This document shows, one piece after another, positions 9,752-28,148 of a stretch of DNA of 35,043 bases (position 1 is its first letter; each line of letters starts with the position of its first letter). A program made the position numbers and the translations under genes. Under the pieces are notes generated by a model, which was not told the origin of the DNA, made no database searches, and saw only the letters and a list, made by a program, of their open reading frames with translations. The stretch comes from Leisingera sp. JC1 (GTDB lineage Bacteria; Pseudomonadota; Alphaproteobacteria; Rhodobacterales; Rhodobacteraceae): positions 89,881-124,923 of the forward strand of contig NZ_LYUZ01000002.1 of assembly GCF_001679925.1 (NCBI RefSeq), in the 5' to 3' direction.

Positions 9752-9808
9752 GAAGTCCCCTTCTCCGGGAGTGGAGGATAGGCAGCGGGACGGAAAAGGG
9801 AAATTCAA

Positions 9809-9827
9809 ATTTGCGAAATCCGCAAAT
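9809..9827. promoter_or_regulatory. Inverted repeat in the torT-torS divergent promoter region
   Basis: A perfect 7-bp inverted repeat, ATTTGCG, spacer AAATC, CGCAAAT, lies 18 bp before the torS start and about 58 bp before the torT start. It is AT-rich compared with its surroundings. It could be an operator for a dimeric regulator or a short mRNA hairpin in the torS leader. It does not resemble the tor-box decamers found upstream of tmoX. No regulator can be named from the sequence alone. Confidence 0.45.
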
Positions 9828-9845
9828 GCAGGCGAAAGTTCCTGA

Positions 9846-12776
9846 ATGTTAGGAAAGCTCGGCCTTGGCGGAAAACTGAGCCTCGCGTTTATCGTTATTG
9901 CGGGGTTGCCGACCCTTGCCGGCATTCTGGGGCTGGTTGAACTACGTGTGCTTGCACGCCGCCAGGCAGAAGTGATCAGCCAGACAATTCCCGCCATCGC
10001 AGAAGTGCGCGGCATGGCAGAGGAAAGCACCCGAATCATAGCCATTGCCCCGGAACTGGCCGGTGTCGCAACCCAAGCGGAACGGGCAAACCGGGCGCAG
10101 TTTCTGTCCGCTCAGGTCGAGGCGCTCACCCGGCGGCTGGACGCGCTGAAGCGTGGCGGCATAGCCGGGTCCAGCCGCCTGCGGGAAACCGTTACTGATG
10201 CCGCAAGTGTACTGGCGTTGCTTGATGAACTGGTGGAAACGCGCATCGCGCTGCACAGCGGGCTCAAACAATTGACCACCCGCAACTTGACCGCCGCAAA
10301 CAACCTACTGAGCATGGCCGACACGCTGGTTGCCAATGCCGAGATGGGAACAACAGCCGTCATTTCAAGCCTGTACGGACCAGGCACGTCTCCGGTGGAG
10401 GAGCAGGCCCGCACCGATATGCTGGACAAGCTGATAGAGGTGGACCTGTTCCAGCTTGGCCTGATGTTCGAACTTAGATCGCAAACTGCTGAGATCGGAC
10501 TGCTGATCAACCGGATCGAAGAGGCAGGCAACGAGGCCGAACTGCAGGAGATCGAGAGCGCACTGACCAGCCGCTTGGACATCGTTTCCCGCCGGATCAA
10601 GGCAATTCGCGATCCCGGCCGCCGCCAGCAGGCTGAAGGCTATGCCACCCAGCTGCAATCCGTGACGGAAGGCAACGCCGGCCTTTTTGGCCTGCGAGCC
10701 CGCATCCTCACCACCGAAACCCGCATCAACACACTGAAGCTGGAACTGCAGAACACAGCGCTTCGGCTTGGTGATGAGGCCTCTGCCGTCGCCGATCAGG
10801 CGCAGGCGCGGGCGATCAGCTCGGGGCATGCTGCCGCAGCTGACATTCAACGGGCACAGCTGCGCAATGGGTTTGCTGCCGTCACCGGCTTCCTGCTTTC
10901 ACTGGCTGTCCTCTGGTTTTATGTGCGCGGCAGCATCACCCGCCGCCTCAACCAGCTGGCAGCCACCATGGCCGCACTAATGCGCGGCGAACTGGATCAC
11001 CCGGTCCAGCCCCGCGGGCAAGATGAGATAGCCCGTATGGAAGCGGCCGTGGAAGTGTTCCGCCAGCAAGCACTCGACAAGCAGGAGCTGGAAAAGGTCC
11101 GCGACCGCAACGAACAGGAACTCAGGGAACACCGCAACAACTTGCAATCTCTTGTCGACGAACAAACGGAACGGCTGCGGGAAGAAGTGGAGGCACACGA
11201 CGATGCCCGTCAGAAGGCCGAAGCTGCCGATCAGGCGAAATCTGAATTCCTGGCGATGATGAGCCACGAAATCCGCACCCCGATGAACGGCGTTCTGGGC
11301 ATGCTGCGCAACCTCTCTGACGAAGGCCTGCCGCCCGGGCAAATGGAACGCCTGCGCGCGGCGCTGGTGTCGGGCCAGAACCTGCTGAAAATCCTGAACG
11401 ACATTCTGGACTACTCCAAAATCGAAAGCGGCGCGCTGAAACGGGAAGACGTCACGTTTTCACTGCGCGATCTTGTGGACGAGATCATTGTCCTGCTGCG
11501 CCCCAGTGCCGACAGCAAAGGAGTTCATCTGTGGCTGGATGCACCTGCAGACCTCCCCGGCGTTGTTAAAGGAGACGCCGCCAAGCTGAGGCAGATCCTG
11601 TTCAACCTGCTGTCGAACGCACTGAAGTTCACGGACACGGGCGAAGTCATCCTGCGGGTTCGCAGAAATGGCGGCACTGCCGGGCATCACCGGGTTGCCT
11701 TCGAGGTCAGCGATACCGGCAAGGGCATTTCCCAGGAGGCCAAGGTGCGCATTTTCGAAGCATTCGAGCAAGAAGACCCGGAAACCGCCCGCAAATTCGG
11801 TGGAACAGGATTGGGCCTGGCGATCAGCAGGCATTTTGCCCAGGCAATCGGTGCCCGCCTGTCCCTGGAAAGCACCAAAGGCGTCGGCTCTGTTTTTACC
11901 CTGGCAGTGGAACTTGCGCCCGGCGATCCTGCAGACTTGAAGCCGGAAGACCCGCCGGCTCCGGTCAAGCTGTCTGGCCCCCCGTTGTCGGTTCTTGTGG
12001 TGGAAGACAATGAGATCAATCAAATGGTTGCGCAGGGCTATCTGGAACGTATGGGCCACAGCTGCCAATGCGTGGCAAGCGCAGAGGAAGCACTGGCGAT
12101 CCTGCCGGAGACCCGGTTCGACTTAGTGCTGATGGATGTCAGCCTGCCTGGTATCAGCGGCACTGAGGCTACCCGCCGCCTGCGCGCAATGACAGATCCG
12201 CGACTGTCAAATCTTCCGGTCATAGGCATCTCCGCGCATGTTCAAGAAGAGCAGATCGAATCCCATTTGCTGGCCGGGATGAATGGTTTCGTGGCCAAGC
12301 CAATCTCACCGGAACGTCTTGCCAAGGCGCTGCAAAGCATCACACAGGGCCACGAAGGCGCAGTTTACTTGTCAGCTCGCCAAGTCTCTCCCGGACAGGA
12401 CAGGAGATCCAGCCTGCTGCGGCAGATGCAGGAGAATATTCAGGATCTGGGCGAGGAGCGGGCCATTGAAATTGCCGCGCTGTTCCAGCAGGAACTTCCC
12501 AAAAGTGTTGAGAAGATGGACGCCAGCCAAACAGCGCATGACCTCGCACGGCTGGCGCAGGAAGCCCATCGCGCGAAGGGCGCCGCCAGCAGTTTCGGTC
12601 AGCAGGACCTGGCCAGTCTTCTGGCAAAACTCGAGAAGTCCGCCACCGATGGCAGCCAGGCCGCCACCGCTGAGCATATGGGCGAGCTGAGCACACTAGC
12701 GCCGCAAGTTTTGGAGGCTCTGTCCAGAGTGCTGCGCGACTATGGCCATCAGCCCAAGGGAGCAGTGAACACGTAG
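9846..12776 (+). CDS. torS: TorS-like hybrid sensor histidine kinase/response regulator
   Basis: A 976-residue membrane kinase with the full TorS order. The N-terminal membrane segment is near residues 10-30 and a helical periplasmic sensor domain follows to about 335. The second membrane segment is near 340-360, then HAMP and a coiled coil. HisKA has His474 in SHEIRTP, and the HATPase has NLLSNALKF and GGTGLGL. The receiver has Asp764 in LMDVSLPG, and a C-terminal Hpt domain has His908 in [13 protein letters not shown]. TorS senses the TorT-TMAO complex and phosphorylates TorR by a four-step relay. It is divergent from torT. It ends 28 bp inside the convergent torR gene, so the two genes share 3' coding sequence. 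The ribosome-binding site is weak. Confidence 0.9.
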
Positions 12777-13499: not shown

Positions 13500-14573
<1,074 letters not shown>

Positions 14574-14596
14574 TTTCCCGCACGAACGTCAATCAG

Positions 14597-14618
14597 CCGG
14601 GGCGGCCCGCTGCCCCGG
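14597..14618 (+). promoter_or_regulatory. Intercistronic hairpin between binding-protein and ATPase genes
   Basis: CCGGGGC at 14597-14603 pairs perfectly with GCCCCGG at 14612-14618 across an eight-base loop, 23 bp after the tmoX stop and 25 bp before the tmoW start. No T-run follows. Such hairpins after binding-protein genes commonly act as 3' stabilisers or partial terminators that leave the binding protein more abundant than the membrane components. That role is inferred here. Confidence 0.5.
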
Positions 14619-14643
14619 AATCCCTGCTAAAGAAAGTTAAGCC

Positions 14644-15675
14644 ATGACCGCCGCCACCCCCGTCATTTCCTGCAAAAACGTCTGGAAACTGTTTGGCGCC
14701 AATCCGGAACAGTACCTGAAATCCCTGAGCGGCAACCCGGGTTTTGATGAGATCCGCCAGGCCGGCTACATCGCCGCGGTGCGGGACGTTTCCCTGGATA
14801 TTGCCAAGGGGGAAATGCTGGTGATCATGGGCCTGTCCGGCTCTGGAAAGTCGACCTTTGTGCGCTGTCTTTCCCGGCTGATCGACATCACCGGCGGCGA
14901 GGTCAAGGTCGAAGGGCAGAACATTGGTGAAATGTCCGAGAAAGAGCTGATAGACCTGCGCCGCAACAAGATGGGCATGGTGTTCCAAAGCTTCGGCCTG
15001 CTGCCGCACCGCACCGTGCTGGATAACGTTGCCTTTCCGCTGGAGATGCGCGGACAGGACCGCCACGAACGCCGCGCCCGCGCGCTGGAGGTGATCGAGC
15101 TGGTCGGTCTTTCTGGACGCGAAGACTATTTCCCGCGCGAGCTGTCCGGCGGCCAGCAGCAGCGCGTCGGCATCGCCCGCAGCCTGGCGATCGAGCCTGA
15201 CATCTGGTTCCTGGATGAACCGTTTTCGGCGCTGGACCCGCTGATCCGCCGCGAGATGCAGGACGAATTCCTGCGCCTGCAAGAAATGCTGGGCAAGACC
15301 ATCGTCTTTATCACCCATGACTTCGACGAGGCCCTGCGCCTTGCCGACCGCATTGCCATCATGAAGGACGGCGTCGTGGAGCAATGCGACACCCCTGACC
15401 AGATAGTGCTGAACCCCGCCACCGAATATGTCGCCAAGTTCACCGAGGAAATCGAGAAGTCCCGCGTGGTTCACGCAGGCGTTCTGGCGCACGAAGTCAA
15501 CGGCCACAGCCTGACAGGCGATCCTGTCGGTGACAAGCAGACCATTGCCGAACTTGCCCGGCTGCTGGTCAACGACAGCCGCGACTTCCTGCCTGTGGCC
15601 AACAACACCGGCACTCTGGTTGGCGCAATGAACCGCCAGGAAGCACTCGACGTGCTGCTGGGAGCAGGGTCATGA
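14644..15675 (+). CDS. tmoW: ABC importer ATP-binding protein, quaternary amine/TMAO type
   Basis: A 343-residue ATPase of the ProV/OpuAA class. Walker A GLSGSGKST is at residues 63-71, the Q-loop in MVFQSFGLLPHRTVLDN near 115, signature LSGGQQQR at 167-174, Walker B and D-loop (WFLDEP then SALD) from about 188, and the switch histidine in FITHDFDEA near 222. The family's typical N-terminal extension before the core (KNVWKLFGANPE) is present. The last 70 residues are a CBS-like regulatory tail, shortened compared with ProV. It energises import through the following permease, which it overlaps by ATGA. Confidence 0.9.
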   Translation: MTAATPVISCKNVWKLFGANPEQYLKSLSGNPGFDEIRQAGYIAAVRDVSLDIAKGEMLVIMGLSGSGKSTFVRCLSRLIDITGGEVKVEGQNIGEMSEKELIDLRRNKMGMVFQSFGLLPHRTVLDNVAFPLEMRGQDRHERRARALEVIELVGLSGREDYFPRELSGGQQQRVGIARSLAIEPDIWFLDEPFSALDPLIRREMQDEFLRLQEMLGKTIVFITHDFDEALRLADRIAIMKDGVVEQCDTPDQIVLNPATEYVAKFTEEIEKSRVVHAGVLAHEVNGHSLTGDPVGDKQTIAELARLLVNDSRDFLPVANNTGTLVGAMNRQEALDVLLGAGS

Positions 15676-17636
15676 CAGACCAGACGATGACACCTGCAGG
15701 TAATCCTCAGACCTGGACGCGGAGCCGGACAGGCTGGACCATTTTCATCGCAGCTTGCCTTCTGGCCATTGGTAATTCGGTTTTGCCTGCCGGGCTGGTG
15801 CGGCCGCCGGAGTGGCTGGTCCTCCCCTTCGCTGACTGGATCAATGCACTCTTCGTGTTTGTCCGCGACGATCTGGGCCTTCTCTACCTGACCCGCGCCT
15901 TTGCCGATGGCGTCGAATGGCTGCTCGATGTGACCGCCAACCTGCTGTACGGCAAGAACCGCTGGCCCCGTATCGGCCCCATTCCATGGACCGTAATCGC
16001 CAGCATCGGCTTTGTCATCGGCTATGCCCTGCAGGGCTGGCGGCTGTCGCTGCTGACCGGCGGCACCTTTGTCTGGATTGCCGTCATGGGACAGTGGAAA
16101 TGGGCGATGGAGACCCTGTCCGTGATCGTCGTTGCCGCGCCGTTCTCGATTCTGTTCGGTCTTGTCATGGGCATTCTCGCCTGGCGCTCCAAGACTTTTG
16201 AAAGGATCCTGAACCCGGTCCTGAATATCGCGCAGAGCCTGCCGCACTTCGCCTATATGATCCCGGTCGTCGTCTTTATCGGCGTCGGTCCCAAGGCAGG
16301 CGCCATCGTCACCATCATTTTCTCGGTGCCGCCAATGATCCGCATGTCTCTGTTGGGCCTGCGTAAGGTCCCGCATGAGGTGATCGAAAGCGGCCATATG
16401 TGCGGTTCCACCCGCTGGCAGCTGCTGCGCCACGTGCGCATCCCAACAGCCCGGACAGAGATCCTGGTCGGTGTGAACCAGGTGATCATGCAATGCCTTG
16501 CCATGGTGGTTCTGGCCAGCTTCATCGGCATGCCGGGCCTCGGCCAGAAACTGCTCCAGTTGCTGCAAGCGCTGAAAATCGGCCGCTCGGTCGAGATCGG
16601 CATCACCATCGTTCTGCTGGCGGTCATGCTGGACCGCTGCACCAAAGCATGGGCCACCAAACAGCCCGAGCATTTCGAAAAAGGCACATCCTTTGCTGTG
16701 CACAACAAATTCCTGCTGCTCGGCATTGGCCTATCGCTGGCTTGCCTGGTACTGGCGCAGTTCATCCCGCTGATGGACCAGATCGGCCGCCGCGATGCTT
16801 TCACCATCTCCAAACCGATTGATGCAGTCGCAGACTGGTTCATCGTACTGATCGACCCGGTGACCCAGTGGCTCCGCTGGTTCCTGATCACTTGGGTGCT
16901 GATTCCGATCCGTGACGCCTTCCTGTGGATGCCCTATGCTGCCGTCCTGGCGCTGCTGGCAGCTGCCGGCTGGGCCATCGGCGGATTGCGCTCCGCTCTT
17001 GTGTGTTTGGGTTTCTTTGGCCTCATCGCCATGTCCGGCTGGTGGGACCGCGCCATGATCACCGTCTACACCGTGGTGGTCGCGGTCTCGATCGCCGCAG
17101 TAATGGGCTTTCCGCTGGGGATCTGGGGCTCTTTCAACGAAAAGCGCGCAAGCATCGCGCTGCTGATCTGCGACACGCTCCAGACCTTCCCCAGCTTTAT
17201 CTACCTGATCCCGGTCGTCATGCTGTTCGGCGTCAATGACGTGGCCGTGGTCGGCGCGGTGATTCTGTTCGCTGCGGTGCCGCTGGTTCGCTACACTATC
17301 GAAGGGCTGCGCCAGGTGCCGGAAACCTTGATCGAGGCTGCCGATATGTCCGGTGCCACAAAGATGCAGACCCTGTGGAAGGTGCGGCTGCCGATGGCAT
17401 TGCCGACCATTATGGTCGGGGTCAACCAGTCGGTGATGTTCTCGCTGTTCATGGTGATCATCGCAGCCTTCATCGGCACCCAGGATCTCGGCCAGGAAAT
17501 GCAGCGGGCGCTGTCCTCCACCGATGTGGGCAAGGGCCTGGTGCTGGGCCTTGCCGTTGCCTTCATGGGGCTGATGGTGGACCACCTGGTGTCCACCTGG
17601 GCACGGTCCAAGAAAGAAGCACTGGGACTGGAGTAA
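15672..17636 (+). CDS. tmoV: ABC importer permease with two fused transmembrane domains
   Basis: A 654-residue inner-membrane protein holding two complete BPD-type permease domains. The first spans about residues 130-330, with the coupling loop EVIESGHMCGSTRWQLL followed by IPTA. The second spans about 440-645, with ETLIEAADMSGATKMQTL followed by LPMA. Several additional hydrophobic segments join them. A single polypeptide can therefore supply both halves of the channel, where ProW-type systems need two copies. The start overlaps the ATPase stop (ATGA). The downstream regulator gene begins five bases after the stop, so it is probably in the same transcript. Confidence 0.87.
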   Translation: MTDQTMTPAGNPQTWTRSRTGWTIFIAACLLAIGNSVLPAGLVRPPEWLVLPFADWINALFVFVRDDLGLLYLTRAFADGVEWLLDVTANLLYGKNRWPRIGPIPWTVIASIGFVIGYALQGWRLSLLTGGTFVWIAVMGQWKWAMETLSVIVVAAPFSILFGLVMGILAWRSKTFERILNPVLNIAQSLPHFAYMIPVVVFIGVGPKAGAIVTIIFSVPPMIRMSLLGLRKVPHEVIESGHMCGSTRWQLLRHVRIPTARTEILVGVNQVIMQCLAMVVLASFIGMPGLGQKLLQLLQALKIGRSVEIGITIVLLAVMLDRCTKAWATKQPEHFEKGTSFAVHNKFLLLGIGLSLACLVLAQFIPLMDQIGRRDAFTISKPIDAVADWFIVLIDPVTQWLRWFLITWVLIPIRDAFLWMPYAAVLALLAAAGWAIGGLRSALVCLGFFGLIAMSGWWDRAMITVYTVVVAVSIAAVMGFPLGIWGSFNEKRASIALLICDTLQTFPSFIYLIPVVMLFGVNDVAVVGAVILFAAVPLVRYTIEGLRQVPETLIEAADMSGATKMQTLWKVRLPMALPTIMVGVNQSVMFSLFMVIIAAFIGTQDLGQEMQRALSSTDVGKGLVLGLAVAFMGLMVDHLVSTWARSKKEALGLE

Positions 17637-17640
17637 TGCT

Positions 17641-18708
17641 ATGACACTGCACTCCAGCGACTTCGGCCCCGCCCCGATCCGCCGCTTCGGCTTCCTGCTG
17701 TTTCCCGGCTTTCCGATGGCCTGCCTGACCGCAGCTATCGACACGTTGCACACCGCAAATGAGCTGGCCGGGCACCAGGTTTTCAGCTGGTCGCTTGTGA
17801 CCGAGACCGGCGCACAGGCAACAGCCTCCGCTGGCGTGCCTTTTGCGGCAGACTGCAGCCTTGCTGAAGCAGACGCCATGGACTGTCTGTTCCTGCTTTC
17901 CGGGCCAGAGGCCGTGTTTGATGACCCGGTCCCCGGACACGGCCGGCTGCGATACCTGGCACGCCACGGTATCATCCTTGGCGCGGCCGCGGGCGGTATT
18001 TTCCCGCTTGCCCGCAGCGGTGTTCTGTCCGGGCGGCGCTGCGCTGTCCATTGGAGCTACCGCAACGCCTTTGAAACCGCCTTTCCGGATTGCACTGCTG
18101 TGGACAGGCTGGCCGTGCGTGACGGGCCGGTTCATACAATTTCCGGAGCCGCTGCGATGCTTGACCTGGCATTGGAGCTGACCGGGAACGCACTTGGCGA
18201 GGCTGCTATGAATGAGGTCGCCTGCATGTATCAGCATCCTGTCCTGCGCAGCGGCAGCGCACGGCAAAAAATCCCCGTTCTGCAAAGCGGCCGCACGGTT
18301 GATCAAATGCCGCCTGCGGTCAAGCAGGCGATGTCCATCTTTTCGGAGAATGTCGAAACTCCTGTCGGCATCCGCGAGGTCGCCCGCATGGCCGGAATTT
18401 CTCCGCGCCAGCTGGAGCGCAGTTTCCGCACCGCCACAGGCCTCAGCCCTGGCGAGTATTACCGCCGCCAGCGCCTCAAGACCGCCAGGCAGATGGTGCG
18501 CTATTCCTGGGACAGCATCTCGGACATCGCTCATTCTGTTGGCTATGCCAGTTCCTCGACGCTGACGCTGCATTACCGCAAATTCTATGGTGTCACGCCC
18601 GTTCAGGACCGCAAACAGACTTTTCTTCCCGAAGCCGGAATTCCGGCCCGAAACCGCCCCGCAGCAGACCAGTGCCCGGCCAAGACTATCACGCTTTCAT
18701 CAGGATGA
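17641..18708 (+). CDS. GlxA family transcriptional regulator (DJ-1/PfpI-like domain plus AraC HTH)
   Basis: A 355-residue regulator. Residues about 10-190 form a class I glutamine amidotransferase-like (DJ-1/PfpI) domain, FGFLLFPGFPMACLTAAID at the start and GVLSGRRCAVHW later. Where many GlxA proteins have a CTGAF nucleophile turn, this one has AAAGGIF, so the domain is probably a ligand sensor rather than an enzyme. Residues about 235-325 are an AraC double helix-turn-helix, with GISPRQLERSFRTATGLSPGEYYR and SVGYASSSTLTLHYRKFYGVTP. GbdR/CdhR-type relatives control choline, betaine and carnitine catabolism. Being the last gene of the importer operon, it may respond to a methylated amine; the effector is not known. 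Confidence 0.88.
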   Translation: MTLHSSDFGPAPIRRFGFLLFPGFPMACLTAAIDTLHTANELAGHQVFSWSLVTETGAQATASAGVPFAADCSLAEADAMDCLFLLSGPEAVFDDPVPGHGRLRYLARHGIILGAAAGGIFPLARSGVLSGRRCAVHWSYRNAFETAFPDCTAVDRLAVRDGPVHTISGAAAMLDLALELTGNALGEAAMNEVACMYQHPVLRSGSARQKIPVLQSGRTVDQMPPAVKQAMSIFSENVETPVGIREVARMAGISPRQLERSFRTATGLSPGEYYRRQRLKTARQMVRYSWDSISDIAHSVGYASSSTLTLHYRKFYGVTPVQDRKQTFLPEAGIPARNRPAADQCPAKTITLSSG

Positions 18709-18777: not shown

Positions 18778-19770
18778 CTAAAATACCGGCTGCGTGCGAT
18801 GGTCAGGGTAGACAACTGCCAATTGGCCGGGCTCAAACAGATCCAACGTTTTGCGCCAGGTCCGGCCAAGCCACAGCAAATCCACTGACAGATCGCCAGG
18901 GTGATAGGCCGCAGTGTACAGCGTGCCAAAACCCTTGTCGAAAGCCAGTGAGTACAGTGGCGGCTTGAGGAAAGTTCCGACAAATTTTTCCTTGGTTTCC
19001 GGATGCAGCGTCAGCCGGTGCAGCAAAAACCGCTCCCTTTCAACAGAGGCCGTTAGACGAGCATGACTGGTCCATTCAACGCGTTCCTGATGATTGGTCG
19101 CAACCGCCGCATGGGTGATCAGGGTCGGACGGTCGGGTGCAAGAAAGGCGGTGAAGTAGTTCCGGTTGCGGTCCAGTACCGTCACATTATAGCTCATGTG
19201 GCAGGGCACGCGCCGCAGCACATCCTTTGCCTCCTCGATGGTTGAGCAGGTCTGCAACAGATACCTGAGGATGAGCGGCACCCCAAAGCCGTCGCCCACG
19301 GCCCGGCGCCCGCCGAAGGTCAGCGAGACGCAAAGCCCGGCATCGTTCACCCCGTCCAGCAAGCCGAACAGGCCGTCCGAGGTCCCCATGACCTGCCGCC
19401 CATTCCAACCGGTCTTCAGATACACCGCATCAAAGGCCGAAGGGTTGTAATCATAATTGCGCACCAGCAGCGGCTCCCTGCCCTGCCAGATGGCCTGGCT
19501 GCAGCCTGCCAGATAACGCGGCGGGCAATAGAAACTGAGGAACCGGGATTCCAGATCGCCGCCGCCAACGGACGCGCACAGCTGATCATAAAGCCCCACC
19601 ATCTCAGGCATATGTGTTTGCAGCGCACGACGGCATTCGGCATAGGTTGGACGGCCAGAGAGGCCTTCGCTGGCCCACCAATTCAAGTAGGCTGTGCGGT
19701 ATTCGGAAAAGAGCCCGGACAGCACTTGCCCCGGCTCCGTTTCCTGCATGGCGCGGAATGTCAGTCTCAT
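18778..19770 (-). CDS. C45 family autoproteolytic acyltransferase/hydrolase (Ntn fold)
   Basis: A 330-residue protein of the acyl-CoA:6-aminopenicillanate acyltransferase/linear amide hydrolase type. The likely nucleophile is Cys90 in AGCSQAIW, followed by LLVRNYDYNP, the usual strand after the cleavage site; maturation by cleavage before Cys90 is expected. GLLDGVNDAGLCVSLTFGGR and a late ATNHQ segment are also typical. Members transfer acyl groups to, or hydrolyse, amides of small molecules. It is the last gene of a four-gene operon, five bases after the ATP-grasp gene, and thus probably acts on the amide made by that ligase, either as acyltransferase or as trimming hydrolase. The substrate is not predictable. 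Confidence 0.83.
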   Translation of the reverse strand: MRLTFRAMQETEPGQVLSGLFSEYRTAYLNWWASEGLSGRPTYAECRRALQTHMPEMVGLYDQLCASVGGGDLESRFLSFYCPPRYLAGCSQAIWQGREPLLVRNYDYNPSAFDAVYLKTGWNGRQVMGTSDGLFGLLDGVNDAGLCVSLTFGGRRAVGDGFGVPLILRYLLQTCSTIEEAKDVLRRVPCHMSYNVTVLDRNRNYFTAFLAPDRPTLITHAAVATNHQERVEWTSHARLTASVERERFLLHRLTLHPETKEKFVGTFLKPPLYSLAFDKGFGTLYTAAYHPGDLSVDLLWLGRTWRKTLDLFEPGQLAVVYPDHRTQPVF

Positions 19771-19775
19771 TCAGC

Positions 19776-21227
19776 CTACATAATCTTGAACGCCGGGTCC
19801 TCAAAGGCCTGTGCAGACGGCAGCGGGCGCGCCGAATAGGCGTTCTTGATGCCGTCGATCCAGCGTTTCGATTTCTCGGTCAGCTGGAAGCCCTTGGTCA
19901 TAGACCGGCCCCGGGTGACAAGAATGCCCAGATCGGCGCCTTCATAGCGGTAATCGCCTGCATTGGAGATCCGCAGGAAGAATGCCTCATCCTCGCTTTC
20001 GACAGCGCGGCGGTGATAATCGAAACGGTCGAACACCACTGATCCGTCCGGCAGCATCTTATATATCCCGGATTCCGGCGCGTGGGTTACGATATCCACT
20101 GTGTCCTCGGTGTGCTTGATCACCATCTGCGACCAGGAATCTATCATGTCCGGGTCAGCCCAGCGGGCATTCAGTTCCCCCACATCCAGCTTGAACGGTT
20201 TCTTGGAGAACTCCAGCAGGTGGAACAGGAACAGCGGCGCGTCCGCATGGGCAAAGGCAGCGTGGTTGGTCATCGAGGACGCCCCGGTGATCCGCGGGTT
20301 CAGCTCGCCCAGCCAAATATCGCCAGTCTTCTTGTCGATCAGGAAGTCCAGCTCAAAATATCCGCGATAGCCCTCCTTGCGCAGCTGCTCGCCGAATTTG
20401 AAGGTCAGCTCGCGTGCCTTTTCGCGTGTCTTAGGTGGAAAGGCAGTAGAGAAAATCTCATTGCCGCACCAGCCGCCCCGGTAGGGCGTCAGTTCCTTAA
20501 AGCCGACAAGTTCTGTCATCAGCGGCCCGACGATTGTGCCTTCGGAGGTGCAGCAGGCCTCGATCGCCGAGCCGCGGCAATCGATCCGTTTCATGATCTT
20601 GATTTCGCCCTGGCCGACGATCTCATGCTCATGCTTGCGGAAATCAGCCTCCGTCTTGATGAAGAACGTGGTGTGGCCGGAATCCCCGAAGGCGCTTTGC
20701 AGCACCAGATCACTGCCAAGATCCGCCTTCTTGCAGATCTTCTTCAGGTGATCATAGCTGTCGACCTTTGAAAGCGTATTCGGAACTGAGGGCACGCCGG
20801 CCTTGTTGCCGACCCGCACGGTCTCAATCTTGTTATCCATCTTGGTGCGCAGCTTCGCCTTGGGGAACCACACCTCACCGCCAAGTTCCTTGGCCAGCTT
20901 CTCAGTCTTTTCATCGAACATCAGGAACACAAACTTGGGCTTGCCGCCGCGCGCCTTGACGTAGTCGATGACCTCCTTGTGCTGCAGCAGGTAGTTGTTG
21001 ATGTCCTCGATGGACTGGAATTCGTCATGCGGCAGCTCAGACGGCACCAGCACGTTCGGGTGGCGGCCGTCGAAACAGTCCATGTAGCAGATATACTTGA
21101 AGTTCTTTACCCACTCGTCGAGCCCGAGAAGATTGAAGTTGGTCGCTGAGACAAAATAGACCGGGTCCGTATTGGTATGGAAATAGCGGCGGATCTCCGA
21201 AATGTTGTTCAGAACTTTCTTCGGCAT
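19776..21227 (-). CDS. ATP-grasp ligase
   Basis: A 483-residue protein with an ATP-grasp fold at about residues 115-330. It has a nucleotide-binding lysine-rich segment (DNKIETVRVGNKAGVPSVPNT), a glycine-rich loop in FGDSGHTTFF, and the metal-binding end GELNPRITGASS near residue 308. The last 120 residues are not a domain I recognise. ATP-grasp enzymes join a carboxylate, through an acyl phosphate, to an amine or thiol. The ribosome-binding site GGGAGA is clear. It lies 56 bp after the PLP decarboxylase and five bases before the C45 enzyme. The simplest reading is that the decarboxylase makes an amine that this ligase couples to an acid, which is inference from order and family only. Confidence 0.85.
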   Translation of the reverse strand: MPKKVLNNISEIRRYFHTNTDPVYFVSATNFNLLGLDEWVKNFKYICYMDCFDGRHPNVLVPSELPHDEFQSIEDINNYLLQHKEVIDYVKARGGKPKFVFLMFDEKTEKLAKELGGEVWFPKAKLRTKMDNKIETVRVGNKAGVPSVPNTLSKVDSYDHLKKICKKADLGSDLVLQSAFGDSGHTTFFIKTEADFRKHEHEIVGQGEIKIMKRIDCRGSAIEACCTSEGTIVGPLMTELVGFKELTPYRGGWCGNEIFSTAFPPKTREKARELTFKFGEQLRKEGYRGYFELDFLIDKKTGDIWLGELNPRITGASSMTNHAAFAHADAPLFLFHLLEFSKKPFKLDVGELNARWADPDMIDSWSQMVIKHTEDTVDIVTHAPESGIYKMLPDGSVVFDRFDYHRRAVESEDEAFFLRISNAGDYRYEGADLGILVTRGRSMTKGFQLTEKSKRWIDGIKNAYSARPLPSAQAFEDPAFKIM

Positions 21228-21283
21228 GTATCGTCTCCCAGTGAATTCAATTTTTCGTTGGATTTCTGTTTCTTGGCGGGCGT

Positions 21284-24028
21284 CTATTTCTTGACTGACT
21301 TCAGGGCCTCCTTGGTGAAAACGCGCAGCCCCAGATCAGCGCGGAATCCGTGGATTTCGCTCACATCAAGCGCCCGCATGAACGACAGGATCTCCGGGCT
21401 TATGACCTGCCCCGGCACCAGGATCGGAAAGCCTGGCGGGTAGGGAATGATGAAGCTCGACGAAACCAGCTCTTCACCCGCTTCCAGCCGCTGCATCAGG
21501 TTGTCATCTGTCGGGATGTAATCGCAGTTGTCCTCGTTGTAGGCGAGGAAGAAAGCGGTGCGGATGTCGCCCTCCGGCGTTTCCTTGCCCGCCCGGAACG
21601 CATCGTGGAACCGGCTGAAATCCGGCAGCGGCGGCACATGTTCCACCAGCGCCGACACCCGGTTGTCAAACGACCGGCGCTCCATCTTAGAGGCATCGTC
21701 CAGCAACTCATCCAGATCGTTGGCTATCTCAACCAGCACCTCGATCAGGTAAGCAACCGAAGACCGGGTAGTGCCGATGTTGGTCATGAACAAGACAGTG
21801 TTGCGCGATGTCTTGTTGATCTGGATCCCGTATTTGTCCATCAGGATCTTGGTCTTGAAGGTATCACCATCCCAGCCTGTGCCACCTACCGCCAGAGTGA
21901 CGCGGGTCGGGTCCAGCACAAATTCATCCTGGCTCCACATCGACCATTTGTCGATCCAGCCGTGATCCGGGTCGTAATAAGCCTCCACCCCGCTCTCGCG
22001 GAACTGCTCCGGAATCATGTCGCCGGCGGTCAGCACTTTGAAGTACTTGTTCAGCAGCGGGTGTTCACTGATCGCCCGGCGGATCGACATCGCGCTTTCG
22101 ATTTGTTTCTGAACGAACTCGAACCCCTCAAGCTCCACCTGCCGGCGCCCGACATCCAGCGAGGCAATGATCTGATAATTCGGCGAGGTCGAGGTATGTG
22201 TCATGTAAGCCTCGTGGAAGGCCTGCTCGACTTCGCCCTTAAAATCCTGGTCATTCACATGGATCATCGACCCCTGCCGCAGCGAGGTCAGCGTCTTATG
22301 GGTGGACTGGGTGGCATAGGCCCGCACCCGCGCATCAGGCGGCGGCACCAGCCGGGTATTCAGCCAGGTCTCCTCATCCGCGTCCTTCAGCATCTCCTGC
22401 TGCGCCTCCCAGGCCTGCACCGTCTCCGGGGTGCGCAACGTTTCCCGCAACGTGTTGGCCACCCCCATCGCCGTGCGCTGGCGGTAGGTCGGGTCAAAGC
22501 GGGCAAAAGCAAACCAGGCCTCGTCCCACAGGAAGATCAGATCTTTCTTGATCGCCAGGCATTCCTCCATCACCCGGCGCACGTTGTAGACGATGCCGTC
22601 AAAAGTGCAGTTGGTCAGCAGAACCATCCGCACCCGGTCCAGCTTGCCGGCTGCTTTGAGCCGCAGCAAGGTGTGCTTGATTTCGCGCAGCGGCACCGCC
22701 CCGTACATCGAATGCTCATGCAGCGGGTAGCTGTCCATATAGGCCACGCTGGCACCCGCCAGCACCATTCCGTAGTGGTGCGATTTGTGGCAGTCCCGGT
22801 CCACCAATACAATGTCGCCGGGGCGGACCACCGACTGCACCACGATCTTGTTGCAGGTCGAGGTGCCGTTGGTGGCAAAGAACGTGTGCTTGGCGCCAAA
22901 GGCGCGCGCGGCCATGTCCTGCGCTTCCTTGATAGGGCCGCGCGGCTCCAGCAGGCTGTCGAGCCCGCCGGAGGTGGCCGATGTTTCCGCTAGGAAGATG
23001 TTGGAGCCGTAAAACGCCCCCATGTCCTGAATCCAGTGCGAGCGGCTGATCGACTTGCCGCGGCTGATCGGCATCGCGTGGAACACGCCGGTGGGCTGCT
23101 TTGAGTATTCCTTGAGCGCAGTGAAGAACGGCGATTTGTAGCGCCGGTCGACCCCGCGCAGAATGTTCAAGTGCAGCTCCTGGAAATCCTCCTGATTGTA
23201 GAACACCCGGCGGCAGCGGCCCAGATCCAGCCCCGCGATATCCTCGGCTGAGCGGTCGGTGACCAGATAGGCGTCCAGCTCCGGCCGGATCTTCTCGATC
23301 AGGCGGCAGGCTTCGGGGCCGTATTCATGAGGGGCGATGGAATCGACTTCCTCCCCCTCGCTCACGCGTGTCAGGTACTGGTTCAGGATCGGCAGTTCGA
23401 TCTTCGATTTCAGCGACAGTCCGGGGCGCACCACCACGGCCTGCACATTGTGGTTGAACAGGATGCCGATCAGCGCATCCTCCAGCGATGGCACAATCAC
23501 CGGCTCATAGATGAACGGGTCCTCAATCCTCCGCATCCGCAAGAGGTTCTGCCGCAGGAACCGCTCCTGCGATTCCGACACGTCATCAACGATCAGTACC
23601 TCGAAATAGGGCCGCCCCAGCGCCCGCGCCTCGGGCGCAAGCGACGCTTCGTCCTCATAGTCTTCGTTGTCAATCTCATCTGAGGACAGCGGAATGGACC
23701 GCCGCCGGTAAGCGCCGGAGGTCAGCGCCCGCGCGATACGGCGCACCGAAACCGCCAAGTCTTCCACATTGCCGTGCTGCAGCAGCCTGCGCAAATGCTC
23801 GAACGCATGAATGCCCGGAAACGCCCAATATCGTTCAATCGGCGCCAGCACATCGAACAGATGCTCCGCCGCGGCCATCAGTTTCTCGCTCTGACGGCCC
23901 TCCTGACGCTGCCGGGCCAGCCCCTCGGCCGACTCCCGTAGCGAACTCCATCTGTCCGCCCGCAGTTGGGTTGCACTGTAATAATCCCGGATCGACGGCA
24001 AAGCCTTCCTTTGCGGCTGCAAGTTCAA
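21284..24028 (-). CDS. Orn/Lys/Arg-type PLP decarboxylase, enlarged
   Basis: A 914-residue fold-type I PLP enzyme related to bacterial inducible arginine/lysine/ornithine decarboxylases. The Schiff-base lysine is Lys578 in STHKTLTSLRQGSMIHV. FFATNGTSTCNKIVVQ, DRDCHKSHHYGM and DEAWFAFARFDP upstream are the cofactor-binding segments. A receiver-like wing domain (VLIVDDVSESQ) lies near residues 145-260. About 140 extra helical residues precede it, making the protein some 150-200 residues longer than AdiA or CadA. Translation starts at TTG, preceded six bases away by a near-perfect AAAGGAGG. The amine product cannot be chosen among agmatine, cadaverine, putrescine or another. The gene is second in the operon. 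Confidence 0.9.
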   Translation of the reverse strand: MNLQPQRKALPSIRDYYSATQLRADRWSSLRESAEGLARQRQEGRQSEKLMAAAEHLFDVLAPIERYWAFPGIHAFEHLRRLLQHGNVEDLAVSVRRIARALTSGAYRRRSIPLSSDEIDNEDYEDEASLAPEARALGRPYFEVLIVDDVSESQERFLRQNLLRMRRIEDPFIYEPVIVPSLEDALIGILFNHNVQAVVVRPGLSLKSKIELPILNQYLTRVSEGEEVDSIAPHEYGPEACRLIEKIRPELDAYLVTDRSAEDIAGLDLGRCRRVFYNQEDFQELHLNILRGVDRRYKSPFFTALKEYSKQPTGVFHAMPISRGKSISRSHWIQDMGAFYGSNIFLAETSATSGGLDSLLEPRGPIKEAQDMAARAFGAKHTFFATNGTSTCNKIVVQSVVRPGDIVLVDRDCHKSHHYGMVLAGASVAYMDSYPLHEHSMYGAVPLREIKHTLLRLKAAGKLDRVRMVLLTNCTFDGIVYNVRRVMEECLAIKKDLIFLWDEAWFAFARFDPTYRQRTAMGVANTLRETLRTPETVQAWEAQQEMLKDADEETWLNTRLVPPPDARVRAYATQSTHKTLTSLRQGSMIHVNDQDFKGEVEQAFHEAYMTHTSTSPNYQIIASLDVGRRQVELEGFEFVQKQIESAMSIRRAISEHPLLNKYFKVLTAGDMIPEQFRESGVEAYYDPDHGWIDKWSMWSQDEFVLDPTRVTLAVGGTGWDGDTFKTKILMDKYGIQINKTSRNTVLFMTNIGTTRSSVAYLIEVLVEIANDLDELLDDASKMERRSFDNRVSALVEHVPPLPDFSRFHDAFRAGKETPEGDIRTAFFLAYNEDNCDYIPTDDNLMQRLEAGEELVSSSFIIPYPPGFPILVPGQVISPEILSFMRALDVSEIHGFRADLGLRVFTKEALKSVKK

Positions 24029-24078
24029 AACCTGCCTCCTTTCTGTCGCGTCAGGACCTGCGCCGCCTTCCAGTCCGG

Positions 24079-25047
24079 TTAATCAGAACCCGTTTTTCCA
24101 GGAAAAACGGAAAAATGATGCGGCGAATGTAACGTCTGCTCAAAATTCTCAATCGAGCTGCGCGGGTCGGAGGACTGCAGCCCGCGCTGCGATCCCTGAC
24201 CAGGCGTCTCAAGCGGCCCCAGCGTTTTCAGATAGGCATCAGCCCCGCTGGTGCGGTCGTAAACAGTGAACTCTGCTTCCCGGTCGCGGAAGCTCTTCAA
24301 AACCTGGCCCAGCCCCTTGAGCCCGGTTTCGCGCTGGCGCCGGACCTGATCCAGATCGATTTCGATCGGGAACATATCCTCCTGCCCCGCCGACTGATGC
24401 AGCACGGTGGCTGAAGGATCCACCACAAGCGAACGACCGACACCGCCGGCGCTCAGCCCGTTGACATCAAAAACATAGCACTGGAACTGGGCTGCCGTAG
24501 CCCGCGCGATGGCAATCTCCGCCTCCCGGTCGGTGGTGCCGGTCAGCACCGGGTGCAGCAGAACTTCCACTCCCTGGCTGGTCAGCTGCCGAGTGGTCTC
24601 CGGGAACCAGATGTCATAGCAAATCGAGAGGCCGAACCGGCCCACCTCGGGGACATCGAACACGCAGAACTCAGTGCCCGCAGAAATTCCTGCCTCATAC
24701 GGGCGGAACGGAAACATCTTGGAGTACTTGGCGACAATCTCACCTTCCGGATTGATCACGACAGATGTGTTCAGGATCCGGCCGTCTTCGGTTTTTTCGA
24801 ACATGGACCCCGGGATCAGCCAGATGCCAAAGCGGCGCGCATCTTCCTGAAACTGCTGCAATGCATCGTTGGGAAAGGGTTGCGCGAACTGATCCAGCGG
24901 CCCGTAGGGGGCAAGTTCGGAAAACAGAACCATCTGCGTCCAGGGAAACCGGGCCATCAAGATCTCAATTCGGTGACGCATGGCTTCGACATTCGAGTGA
25001 AGCGCAGAGACATGCATCTGAACACCAGCAATAGCGAAAGGTGTCAT
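24079..25047 (-). CDS. Carbon-nitrogen hydrolase (nitrilase superfamily amidase)
   Basis: A 322-residue nitrilase-superfamily enzyme with the full catalytic triad: Glu44 in FSELAPYG, Lys110 in YSKMFPFRPYE and Cys143 in ICYDIWFPE. RSLVVDPSATVL near residue 205 closes the core. The last 55 residues are a low-complexity tail outside the fold. It hydrolyses an amide, carbamoyl or nitrile group in the cytosol. Relatives include N-carbamoylputrescine amidase, which would make sense beside an arginine-type decarboxylase, but this cannot be proved from sequence. It is first in the operon, with 50 bp to the decarboxylase. The ribosome-binding site is weak (GGAG 11 bases upstream). Confidence 0.9.
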   Translation of the reverse strand: MTPFAIAGVQMHVSALHSNVEAMRHRIEILMARFPWTQMVLFSELAPYGPLDQFAQPFPNDALQQFQEDARRFGIWLIPGSMFEKTEDGRILNTSVVINPEGEIVAKYSKMFPFRPYEAGISAGTEFCVFDVPEVGRFGLSICYDIWFPETTRQLTSQGVEVLLHPVLTGTTDREAEIAIARATAAQFQCYVFDVNGLSAGGVGRSLVVDPSATVLHQSAGQEDMFPIEIDLDQVRRQRETGLKGLGQVLKSFRDREAEFTVYDRTSGADAYLKTLGPLETPGQGSQRGLQSSDPRSSIENFEQTLHSPHHFSVFPGKTGSD

Positions 25048-25442: not shown

Positions 25443-26312
25443 GTGGCCGAGTCTCTGCTGAGTTTTTCCGAAGTGCTGTTGTTTGGACGCCCCCTGAGTG
25501 ATCTGCAAATCAATGCCGCAGACGCGGACGATGAAGAAAGCGTGCGCGCGGCTACTGATGCAAGCCTGGACCTGACTAAAAACGTCAGCGAAGTGGACGG
25601 GGTCGATCTTGCGCTGAACGACAAGGTTTTGGTGCGCCTCAACGGCTCAAAAGAAAACGGAATTTACCAGGCTGCCGCGGCCCAAGGAAGTAACTTTAAG
25701 CTGGAGGGGCGCCAAACAATTGAGAAAGGTAAGAGAGTTTCAGTTTCAGAGGGGGACGAACTAGGCGGAACAACTTGGGTTCAGAGAAAGGAACCTGACA
25801 AGCAAGTTTTCAAGGAGTTCAAACCGCGTCGCGGCCGGGGCAAGAACAATTTCTTGAAAGGCCAGTTCGGCCCGGATGCCAAGCTCGCGCGCATTTATGG
25901 CTTCTCTTACGAAGGCACGTATTTCGAACTGCCGGAGCCTGCCGTTTTTCTTGTTCACGGGGACGGCGAGAGTGCTACGGGCAAACTGCCTGACAAAACA
26001 GAGGTCCAGGTCTCACGCGCCCCTCTGAACCCTTCCGTGACGGGGGTTGCCTCAGCTGAATATCAGTTCGCAAACGACATTATGGTCTGGGACTATGACA
26101 AAGCCGACTACTCAATCCGCTTTGATGTAATGACGGGTATGTTGGAGCAGATACTTTTGGATGTCTACTTCGGCGGTGGACCTGACATTAGCGGCGCGAA
26201 GGTCAGCGGCGCCAAGGTGAGCGGTGCCAAAGTCAGCGGCGCTAAGGTCAGCGGTGCAAAGGTCAGCGGCGCCAAGGTGAGCGGGGCAAAGGCGCGCGGC
26301 TCCGGCGACTGA
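25443..26312 (+). CDS. Unrecognised protein with C-terminal SGAKV pentapeptide repeats
   Basis: A 289-residue protein starting at GTG, with GGGAG eight bases upstream. Residues about 30-75 (VRAATDASLDL, then VDGVDLALNDKVLVRLNGSKENGIY) resemble a short module common in phage tail and other adhesion-type proteins. The middle is charged and shows no known domain. Near residue 235 the sequence becomes DYSIRFDVMTGMLEQILLDVYFGGG, then seven SGAKV units and the basic end RGSGD. Read as AKVSG, these fit the pentapeptide-repeat consensus, which folds as a right-handed beta-helix, though seven units make only about two turns. There is no signal peptide. Function is unknown. It is isolated, facing a cyclase gene. 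Confidence 0.7.
   Translation: MAESLLSFSEVLLFGRPLSDLQINAADADDEESVRAATDASLDLTKNVSEVDGVDLALNDKVLVRLNGSKENGIYQAAAAQGSNFKLEGRQTIEKGKRVSVSEGDELGGTTWVQRKEPDKQVFKEFKPRRGRGKNNFLKGQFGPDAKLARIYGFSYEGTYFELPEPAVFLVHGDGESATGKLPDKTEVQVSRAPLNPSVTGVASAEYQFANDIMVWDYDKADYSIRFDVMTGMLEQILLDVYFGGGPDISGAKVSGAKVSGAKVSGAKVSGAKVSGAKVSGAKARGSGD
26190..26294 (+). repeat. Seven tandem 15-bp units coding SGAKV
   Basis: Seven in-frame 15-bp units each encode Ser-Gly-Ala-Lys-Val (the last ends in Ala). The DNA copies differ almost only at synonymous third positions (GGC/GGT/GGG, GCG/GCC/GCT/GCA, AAG/AAA, GTC/GTG). Protein identity despite DNA divergence points to selection on the peptide, not to a recent slippage expansion. 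Confidence 0.9.
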
Positions 26313-26378: not shown

Positions 26379-28148
26379 TCAGAACCCCGCTTTTTTCAAC
26401 CCTTCGACAAAATGCTGGGTATCTTCTTCCAGGCGGTCAGGCTGTACTTTGGCCCAGCGATCCAGTGAAAAGTTCGGGTGGGCCTCGCGGTGCCGCGCGG
26501 CCATGTCCTTCGCCAGTTCCATATTGCCCAGCTGGGCATAGCTTGCGGCTAGCATGCGCTGGCCCTCCGTCGGGTTGTTCATCTTGGTCAGCGTGTCGAT
26601 AACCGCGTCGTATTCCTTAAGATTGTAATAGGCGCCCCCCAGGTGCCACAGGTATTGATCCGGGAAGTAGGGGTTGAGCCGCATCGCCTGCTGGAGGTTG
26701 CTGATAGCAGCTTCGTTGTCGCCGGAGTGCGCCAGCGCATCCGCATAGTCGGACAGCAGATCGGCGTCATTCGGGTTGAGCGCAAGAGCGCGCTGATAGG
26801 CGCCAATCGCAGCGTCATGCTCTTTGCGGTACAGGTGCACAAAGCCCAATTCGCCAAAACCGCGGGCATCGGTCGGATCCAATTCCACTGCCTTTTGCGC
26901 AAAACTCAGAGCTGTATCCAGCGCGTGGTCCGCATCCTTGGCCCAAGAGTACCGCCAATCGATATTCATCGTGCGGGAAATGGCCGCCGACGCCCGGGCA
27001 TAGTCCTGATCCCGCGCCAGAGCCCTTTCGTACAGGGTTTGCGCTTCGTGATTGTCCTGCCGTGTATAGCGGAAGATATACTGCTGGCCGCGCAAAACAT
27101 ATCCATAGGCGGCAAGGTCGGACGGAGCTGTCTGTGACATCCGTTTGCGTTCCTGTGCTTCGATCAACACAGCCGTGGCTGCAACAACGGCGTCGGTGAC
27201 TTCATCCTGTATGGCAAAGATGTCATCGATATCCCGGTCGTAGCGCTCTCCCCAGATGGTTCGGCCTGAATCCGCGTCGATCAGCTCAATCGCGATGCGG
27301 ATCCGGGAGGCTGCCCGCCGGACGCTGCCCCGCGCAACATAGCGCACGCCAAGCTCGCGAGCCGCATCTTGGGGCGGCATCAATCCCGCCTTGAAGAAAA
27401 AAGCGGAATTGCGGGCTATGACAAAGAGGTTTTTGAACTTGGACAGGTTCAGGATGATGTCCTCTGTCAGCCCGTCGGCAAACCAGCTGTCCGTGGGGTC
27501 TCCGCCAAGGCTCGAAAACGGCAGCACTGCAACCGAGGGAATGTCCGGCTGTTGCGGCGGCACGGGCTGATTGGCAGGGCGCAGGGTGGCCGCCATCGCC
27601 GCTCCCTCGATCTCGCTGCGGACACAATAAGCCGGGACAGGTTCCGCGATATTCTTGAGCCGCCGCGGACCCAGAAATTCGAAACCGAAGCGCAAACGGT
27701 TACGGATCTGCTCATAGACTGAGGCACTTACATAGACACGGCCCGGCTCGGCAATTTCCTGCAACCTGGCGGCTATATTGACGTTGTCGCCGTGAATACC
27801 GCGGTCGTCGACCAGGATTTCACCCATGTGGACACCTGCCCGGAACCGCAGTTGCTGATCCTCCGCCCGGCTGCGGTTGTTCTGGTCCGCGATCCGGTGC
27901 AACTCGACCCCGAATTTGACCGCATCAGTAGCGGTTTCGAACAAGGCAAGAACGCCATCCCCCCGGACCGCAACAACCTGACCGTCATGCAGTTGGCAAG
28001 CGGATTCCAGCTGCTCCAGCAGGGACTTCAGCGCGCTGTAGGTGTCAATCTCGTCATTACCCATCAGCCGGGCATAACCGACCACATCAGCAAACAGCAC
28101 CGCGCCAAGCTGACGCCGGACATGATTCTCCTTGTCTTGGCCGCTCAC
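26379..28148 (-). CDS. Class III adenylate/guanylate cyclase with TPR domain
   Basis: A 589-residue protein. Residues about 12-180 are a class III cyclase catalytic domain, with LFADVVGYARLM and VRGDGVLALF (metal aspartates) and HGDNVNIAARLQ (transition-state Asn/Arg). Residues about 205-335 hold a FlgO/TolB-N-like module (SVAVLPFSSLGG...WFADGLTEDI). The rest is a chain of tetratricopeptide repeats. This order is common in Rhizobiales and Rhodobacterales. It should make cAMP in the cytosol, with TPRs recruiting a partner. Translation starts at GTG after GGAGG. The gene stands alone, convergent with the pentapeptide-repeat gene. The TPR part is intact to the stop. Confidence 0.9.
   Translation of the reverse strand: MSGQDKENHVRRQLGAVLFADVVGYARLMGNDEIDTYSALKSLLEQLESACQLHDGQVVAVRGDGVLALFETATDAVKFGVELHRIADQNNRSRAEDQQLRFRAGVHMGEILVDDRGIHGDNVNIAARLQEIAEPGRVYVSASVYEQIRNRLRFGFEFLGPRRLKNIAEPVPAYCVRSEIEGAAMAATLRPANQPVPPQQPDIPSVAVLPFSSLGGDPTDSWFADGLTEDIILNLSKFKNLFVIARNSAFFFKAGLMPPQDAARELGVRYVARGSVRRAASRIRIAIELIDADSGRTIWGERYDRDIDDIFAIQDEVTDAVVAATAVLIEAQERKRMSQTAPSDLAAYGYVLRGQQYIFRYTRQDNHEAQTLYERALARDQDYARASAAISRTMNIDWRYSWAKDADHALDTALSFAQKAVELDPTDARGFGELGFVHLYRKEHDAAIGAYQRALALNPNDADLLSDYADALAHSGDNEAAISNLQQAMRLNPYFPDQYLWHLGGAYYNLKEYDAVIDTLTKMNNPTEGQRMLAASYAQLGNMELAKDMAARHREAHPNFSLDRWAKVQPDRLEEDTQHFVEGLKKAGF

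Follow-up and report, generated by a model that had tools for sequence, protein, structure and literature searches.

A widespread four-gene module of Leisingera sp. JC1 that may shield amines as amides during the breakdown of basic amino acids

What a pyridoxal phosphate (PLP)-dependent decarboxylase, an ATP-grasp ligase and two enzymes acting on amides might accomplish together is the question raised by four adjacent genes in a 35,043-nucleotide stretch of DNA from Leisingera sp. JC1 (contig NZ_LYUZ01000002.1, positions 89,881 to 124,923), the whole of which is referred to below as the window. In transcription order, these genes are as follows.

24079-25047, minus strand: CNH, carbon-nitrogen hydrolase (nitrilase superfamily), first gene, 322 aa, start ATG
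21284-24028, minus strand: DC, Orn/Lys/Arg-type PLP decarboxylase of the Rv2531c family, 914 aa, start TTG
19776-21227, minus strand: GRASP, divergent ATP-grasp ligase (NCBIfam PRK06524, labelled biotin carboxylase), 483 aa, start ATG
18778-19770, minus strand: AAT, C45 autoproteolytic N-terminal nucleophile (Ntn) acyltransferase/hydrolase, last gene, 330 aa, start ATG

The initial annotation described four intact minus-strand genes separated by gaps of 50, 56 and 5 bp, and a check of the open reading frames (ORFs) bears this out, together with the residues it singled out as catalytic: Cys143 of CNH (in GLSICYDIW), Lys578 of DC (in STHK), GELNPR of GRASP (from residue 307) and Cys90 of AAT (in GCSQA). 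Directly 5' of the TTG start of DC lies AAAGGAGG. Scans for sigma70 promoters and terminators across the operon gave results at the level of shuffled sequence.

The four genes make up a genuine module, uncharacterised so far, which recurs as one block in many bacteria. A search with GRASP over one-genome-per-species contigs returned 358 relatives, the best 80 of which were kept, a set in which close relatives are over-represented (the nearest, in Leisingera sp. ANG-M7, is 100% identical). Distant relatives were added from genome draws, in which genes of the NCBIfam NF005096 type were found in 29/149 genomes of the family, 11/385 of the class, 11/398 of the phylum and 8/274 of the class of genome G456. 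Partners were counted by sequence similarity thresholds within 12 kb in 92 loci, the remainder of 121 fetched GRASP loci no shorter than 12 kb once near-duplicates (95% protein identity) had been removed; loci at contig ends depress these counts, and shorter loci were excluded, including L128 with its genes on both strands. A C45 gene was present near GRASP in 89 of the 92 loci, DC in 85 and CNH in 80. All four genes were found in 73 loci, invariably on a single strand, and 68 of these have the CNH-DC-GRASP-AAT order of the window (three have CNH-GRASP-AAT-DC and two DC-CNH-GRASP-AAT). Pairwise distances of the four proteins correlate with r 0.86-0.94 (in the 80 dereplicated loci where all four are full-length), whereas gabT, present in 24 of those loci, correlates with the four at r 0.31-0.37 and the four among themselves in this subset at 0.90-0.97. 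The set occurs in Alphaproteobacteria, in the betaproteobacterium Cupriavidus and in genomes from a further class of the phylum. The earlier proposal that the genes form one unit, to be checked by surveying neighbourhoods in Rhodobacterales and beyond, is thus upheld, and co-occurrence, order and co-variation of all four rule out a chance neighbourhood, short of an artefact of sampling. For the same reason, ordinary polyamine synthesis by DC beside three chance neighbours, which has the family resemblance of DC in its favour, is barely credible. No paper naming this gene set was among those listed by literature searches.

The module is not always complete. In the GRASP tree, clade II includes five loci without DC, along with the DC-bearing L128 and L145, and DC is also missing nearby from L037 and L095, yet these fall outside clade II (L095 by tree, L037 by 88% identity). 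A DC gene is absent at 1e-20 from three genomes (G838, G780 and G776), and G857 has two GRASP copies, one per clade, without (L176) and with (L194) DC.

What do the individual enzymes suggest? DC matches OKR_DC_1 (PF01276, 8.2e-75) in Pfam and is homologous over its full length (residues 4-910, E 9.9e-248) to Rv2531c (9n0n), the next structures being those of an arginine decarboxylase (6q6i, 1.7e-61) and a lysine decarboxylase (5.8e-51). Its PLP lysine, Lys578 in STHK, is invariant in 25 aligned members, and its catalytic motifs resemble those of ordinary decarboxylases. Six residues further (Lys578+6) it has an Arg, where arginine and lysine decarboxylase sequences carry Ser. Judged by these matches, DC groups with the orphan Rv2531c in the fold-type I Orn/Lys/Arg class. 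A second, distant decarboxylase of Orn/Lys/Arg type (29% identity) is encoded in the same genome (L192, C136).

GRASP has no Pfam match at 0.001 and matches the NCBIfam 'biotin carboxylase' model NF005096 with 758 bits. Its AlphaFold2 model (predicted local distance difference test, pLDDT, 90.7) has biotin-carboxylase-type enzymes and PurK as the 50 matches listed from the PDB (TMq 0.51-0.64), revealing an ATP-grasp fold with an E-x-N-P-R site in which E-L-N-P-R is retained. The RIQVEH motif of pyruvate carboxylase reads RITGAS in GRASP. The Glu of this motif, four positions past the Arg of E-x-N-x-R, is catalytic in biotin carboxylase, and across 30 GRASP members its column holds Ala (25), Cys (2), Ile (2) or Val (1) and never Glu. 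Because this residue is missing in 30/30 members, a biotin carboxylase identity is ruled out and the database name is a misnomer. No biotin carrier or carboxyltransferase was found among the named neighbour clusters, although many clusters are unnamed and the genome was not searched for one. GRASP would rather be expected to join an acid to an amine. In L103, a second, diverged and partial GRASP-like match (11619-12623) sits between GRASP and the C45 gene.

AAT belongs to PF03417 (2.9e-31) and to the C45 family NF040521 (163 bits). Its conserved Cys nucleophile, Cys90, is invariant in two alignments (35 and 31 members), and its model (pLDDT 93) has the fold of isopenicillin N acyltransferase (IAT), with 2x1c as best PDB match (3.5e-14), as befits a C45 Ntn enzyme that may take an acyl group off. 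CNH, a CN_hydrolase (PF00795, 5.5e-29) whose closest solved structure is Nit2 (6.7e-18), has by motif the Glu-Lys-Cys triad of the nitrilase superfamily (Glu44, Lys110 and Cys143) and is probably the amidase of the pathway. An identity with the 5-aminovaleramidase DavA is ruled out by only 26-29% identity to two DavB-linked hydrolases (L218 and L219). Genes with an amidase signature are found in the fetched stretch of five of the 12 loci without CNH (L099, L101, L102, L145 and L223), suggesting that the amidase step matters; they also turn up in some further loci. The chain of decarboxylase, ligase and amide enzymes initially put forward is a fair reading of the families. Its biosynthetic direction, however, was most likely misread, and the module is probably catabolic.

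This direction is indicated by the company that the four genes keep. A gabT-like gene (at least 48% identity) lies within 12 kb in 39 of the 92 GRASP loci and in none of 20 control loci without GRASP, which are not a random sample. Genes for an XRE-cupin regulator (32), TAXI and TRAP importers (33 each), the universal stress protein USP (30), succinate-semialdehyde dehydrogenase (SSADH; 12) and a ureohydrolase (3) were counted over the same distance, only part of the neighbour clusters having been given names. In a frequent layout (L012, L016, L020, L028 and L032), gabT is divergent from regulator-TAXI-TRAP-USP-CNH-DC-GRASP-AAT. Four of five class III aminotransferases checked score above the TIGR00700 cut-off (the exception being L127), as does that of L173, and the neighbouring regulator is PuuR-like (136 bits, under the cut-off of 211).

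Other partners are specific to lineages. In L131 and L132, from another class of the phylum, the four genes are embedded in an ectoine-degradation cluster. In Shinella and Roseateles, GRASP-C45 lies in a cluster with racemase, D-amino acid dehydrogenase, 5-guanidino-2-oxopentanoate decarboxylase, aldehyde dehydrogenase and ureohydrolase genes, which by its gene content is of the arginine-to-gamma-aminobutyrate (GABA) type; the Roseateles DC lies elsewhere on the plasmid, within 10 kb of arginase, ornithine cyclodeaminase, LysE/ArgO and ArgP genes. A ureohydrolase gene is upstream of the operon in L134 and L136, in the latter with one ORF in between and a score above the agmatinase cut-off. Within clade II, L173 has a CoA-transferase nearest the succinate-glutarate type (533 bits, under the cut-off of 750), 83% like that of L175, and an acyl-CoA dehydrogenase, the 79% relative of which in L219 stands next to a lysine-monooxygenase gene, while L174 encodes an L-lysine oxidase/monooxygenase (1.2e-287). 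The linkage to GABA/glutarate-type enzymes, regulators and importers is as directly observed as the genes themselves, their joint travel and co-variation and their enzyme families, and the surroundings look mostly catabolic. A catabolic direction is preferred because the genes that recur in the neighbourhood encode GABA transaminase, XRE-cupin regulators and importers, joined in single lineages by arginine, ectoine, glutarate or lysine genes. The modified polyamine, osmolyte or signal that was suggested as the product is accordingly weakly supported, these partners pointing to omega-amino acid breakdown, with the rhizobial branch (see below) perhaps having a nif-linked biosynthetic role.

The reading favoured here, tentatively and with somewhat less than an even chance of being right, is that the operon is a catabolic module converting a basic amino acid to an omega-amino acid via an amide. 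We infer its chemistry, that is the substrate, the ligated acid, the step order, the bond cut by each hydrolase and the oxidising agent. DC would decarboxylate arginine or ornithine, or lysine in some relatives, and GRASP would spend ATP to join the resulting amine to a carboxylic acid, for which glutamate is the best guess. The ligated acid would shield the amine, as PuuA does in the putrescine pathway of E. coli, while the other end is oxidised, after which the two amide bonds would be cleaved by CNH and AAT. GABA or 5-aminovalerate, which would be the common end points, would thereby be released and handed on to a transaminase of the GabT type and to a semialdehyde dehydrogenase. To ligate, transform and unwrap is the simplest reading of such parts in mostly catabolic settings. 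The tree of GRASP clades does not separate lysine from arginine as a single substrate.

Several findings sit uneasily with this scheme. No oxidase was found among the named recurrent neighbours (many rare clusters being unnamed), which leaves the oxidation step without an enzyme. The genome of the window has no TIGR00700 match at 1e-80 despite 18 class III aminotransferase matches, and the operon there adjoins betaine-transport genes. Only 3/92 loci have a linked ureohydrolase, and the clade split is unclean, since L145 of clade II has gabT, SSADH and DC. GRASP-free relatives of DC lie beside aspartate-alanine antiporters, which hints at an acidic substrate, and the rhizobial branch looks, from its promoter-like sites, sigma54-controlled and may have a biosynthetic role.

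The missing oxidase, as well as the usual presence of an amidase, would be accounted for if DC were a PLP- and O2-dependent monooxygenase-decarboxylase forming a carboxamide that CNH hydrolyses. DC and CNH would then replace DavB and DavA, while GRASP would put a shield on the other amine and AAT would take it off. Cap15 offers a precedent by analogy (PMC7497351). Also in favour of this reading, at one locus (L174/L193) the L-lysine oxidase/monooxygenase gene stands beside CNH, AAT and GRASP in a genome without DC at 1e-20. However, this is a single locus; the triad is found in none of 13 other DavB-type loci (in 11 genomes), nor in L191 of G340, so that DavB linkage is ruled out as a rule. 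Moreover, G079 and G105 have the DC operon and a DavB-type gene together, arguing against mutual exclusion, the hydrolases beside other DavB genes (L218 and L219) are only 26-29% like CNH, and the motifs of DC look like those of an ordinary decarboxylase. Oxygen is also scarce in nodules, where one branch may be active. This carboxamide chemistry is therefore improbable, and just as improbable is the fuller combination in which a hitherto undescribed ATP-dependent, amide-shielded route from basic to omega-amino acids has an Rv2531c-type oxygenase-decarboxylase, a new ATP-grasp amine ligase and a rhizobial branch controlled by NifA and sigma54. Separately, L215, L216 and L217 have lysine-oxidase-like genes (55-60%; the L217 match is in two pieces) and, no more than 4 kb away, ureohydrolase genes; L215 and L216 also have an AruI-like gene, which may point to an arginine oxidase route.

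Could the substrate be an acidic amino acid or its gamma-amide instead? GRASP would then join glutamate to an amine, DC would decarboxylate the conjugate and the resulting GABA amide would be hydrolysed, for a net conversion of glutamate to GABA. C45 enzymes such as insect Tan cleave omega-aminoacyl amides. DC relatives adjoin AspT-type antiporters, a DctA/GltP-like symporter (below cut-offs) adjoins the Cupriavidus operon, a glutamate dehydrogenase gene near rhizobial operons has a similar promoter-like site in four of five cases looked at, and the Arg at Lys578+6 replaces the Ser of arginine and lysine decarboxylases. Nevertheless, DC is nearest to precisely those decarboxylases, arginine and lysine genes recur in the neighbourhoods and an ordinary glutamate decarboxylase would cost less, which makes an acidic substrate quite unlikely. 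The antiporter-linked homologues (L149, L150, L151 and L163) lack the other three genes and nest among operon DCs in the DC tree (97/93). Aspartate 4-decarboxylase is also found at L149 and L151, and HdeA/HdeB at L149; these homologues are a possible acid-resistance offshoot.

A biosynthetic role holds up best in rhizobia, whose seven plasmid loci group together as a single clade of the DC tree. In L101/L224 the DC-GRASP-C45 genes and nifHDKEN point away from each other, with nifH adjacent, and nifH of L096 is on the same plasmid ~25 kb away. Six of the seven loci have, within 700 bp 5' of DC, a sigma54-type site with no more than one mismatch, five of them within 210 bp, against a background of 0.060 per kb per strand (25 sites in 417,032 bases, a total that takes in both strands). 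In L097 the annotated DC start is internal and the site is 628 bp away, and L101 has a site with two mismatches. A TGT-N10-ACA motif lies 69-106 bp further upstream in five loci (L096, L097, L099, L103 and L223), with none so placed in L101 and L102. A similar promoter-like site precedes the nearby glutamate dehydrogenase gene in 4/5 rhizobial loci looked at, and importer, amidase and regulator genes lie downstream of the operon genes. None of 76 loci from the best 80 relatives has a sigma54-type site within 400 bp upstream of CNH.

On these grounds, DC could supply an amine that GRASP joins to an acid, with AAT as acyltransferase and CNH trimming, to give an amide that is secreted or stored. 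In the case of root-nodule bacteria, this might be a rhizopine-like compound made by bacteroids and recovered through the products of downstream genes (peptide importer, amidase and serine hydrolase). Outside rhizobia, however, the partners look catabolic, and the seven loci are a single clade in which the DC frame is shortened or split in L096, L097 and L101 (Rhizobium leguminosarum plasmids), perhaps in decay. Linkage to nifH is established for two of the seven loci (60 of 155 records looked through), and nifH of L224, a positive control, has no sigma54-type site at one mismatch in the same scan, only a TGT-N10-ACA at -185. Furthermore, arginine catabolism is described as important in bacteroids in one study (PMC7268258), so sigma54 control would suit breakdown too. 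A biosynthetic module is thus unlikely, if far from negligible.

The flanks of the operon in the window hold the following features.

8699-10045, minus strand: TorT
9846-12776, plus strand: TorS-type hybrid kinase
13560-18708: choline/betaine-type ABC transporter with a 654-aa double permease, then a GbdR-like AraC regulator

TorT and the TorS-type kinase form a trimethylamine N-oxide-sensing pair beside the betaine transporter. The GbdR-like regulator is convergent with the four-gene operon, and another GbdR-like gene lies near the operon homologues in L145. Among the best 80 of 358 relatives, the betaine permease flank is common only to L004 and L005. On the other side, about seven copies of a 15-bp repeat (26190-26292), coding an SGAKV repeat, are found at the 3' end of ORF 25443-26312, and ORF 26379-28148 resembles, by its translation, an adenylate cyclase domain fused to TPR-like repeats.

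How does the favoured catabolic, amide-shielded route compare with known systems? The closest parallel is the Puu (gamma-glutamyl putrescine) pathway of E. coli, in which PuuA shields the amine and which likewise has an ATP-dependent ligase for the amine, an amide hydrolase, a GABA transaminase, a semialdehyde dehydrogenase, an XRE-cupin regulator and an importer. However, the ligase of the module is of the ATP-grasp type rather than glutamine-synthetase-like, its hydrolases are C45 and nitrilase enzymes and its decarboxylase is built in. None of the four genes is a homologue of PuuA, PuuB, PuuC or PuuD, the likeness being confined to the regulator and GabT, and no PuuB/PuuC-type gene is among the named neighbours. 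DavBATD, the lysine-to-glutarate route, shares an amidase of the C-N hydrolase superfamily, a GabT/GabD-like follow-up and, at one module locus, the monooxygenase, but its two linked hydrolases compared show 26-29% identity to CNH, and GRASP and the C45 enzyme have no counterpart there. The arginine transamination network of bacteroids, as far as the accessible text goes (PMC7268258), leads from arginine via GABA to succinate in nodules, like the proposed route, and comprises transaminases, ureohydrolases, decarboxylases and dehydrogenases; unlike the module, it includes no ATP-grasp or C45 enzyme in that text. If the proposed route is real, Rhodobacterales and some nodule bacteria handle nitrogen from arginine or lysine by a route not recognised so far, with implications for the use of host amino acids by bacteroids. 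Biotin carboxylase and PurK have the ATP-grasp fold of GRASP, which differs in lacking the RIQVEH Glu. Finally, the orphan decarboxylase Rv2531c of M. tuberculosis (PDB 9n0n/9n0o), the activity of which has not been clarified according to a review (PMC12910592), belongs to the same full-length family as DC, and the module offers a function hypothesis for two orphan families at once, the Rv2531c-type decarboxylases and the ATP-grasp enzymes (358 relatives) that NCBIfam calls 'biotin carboxylase'.

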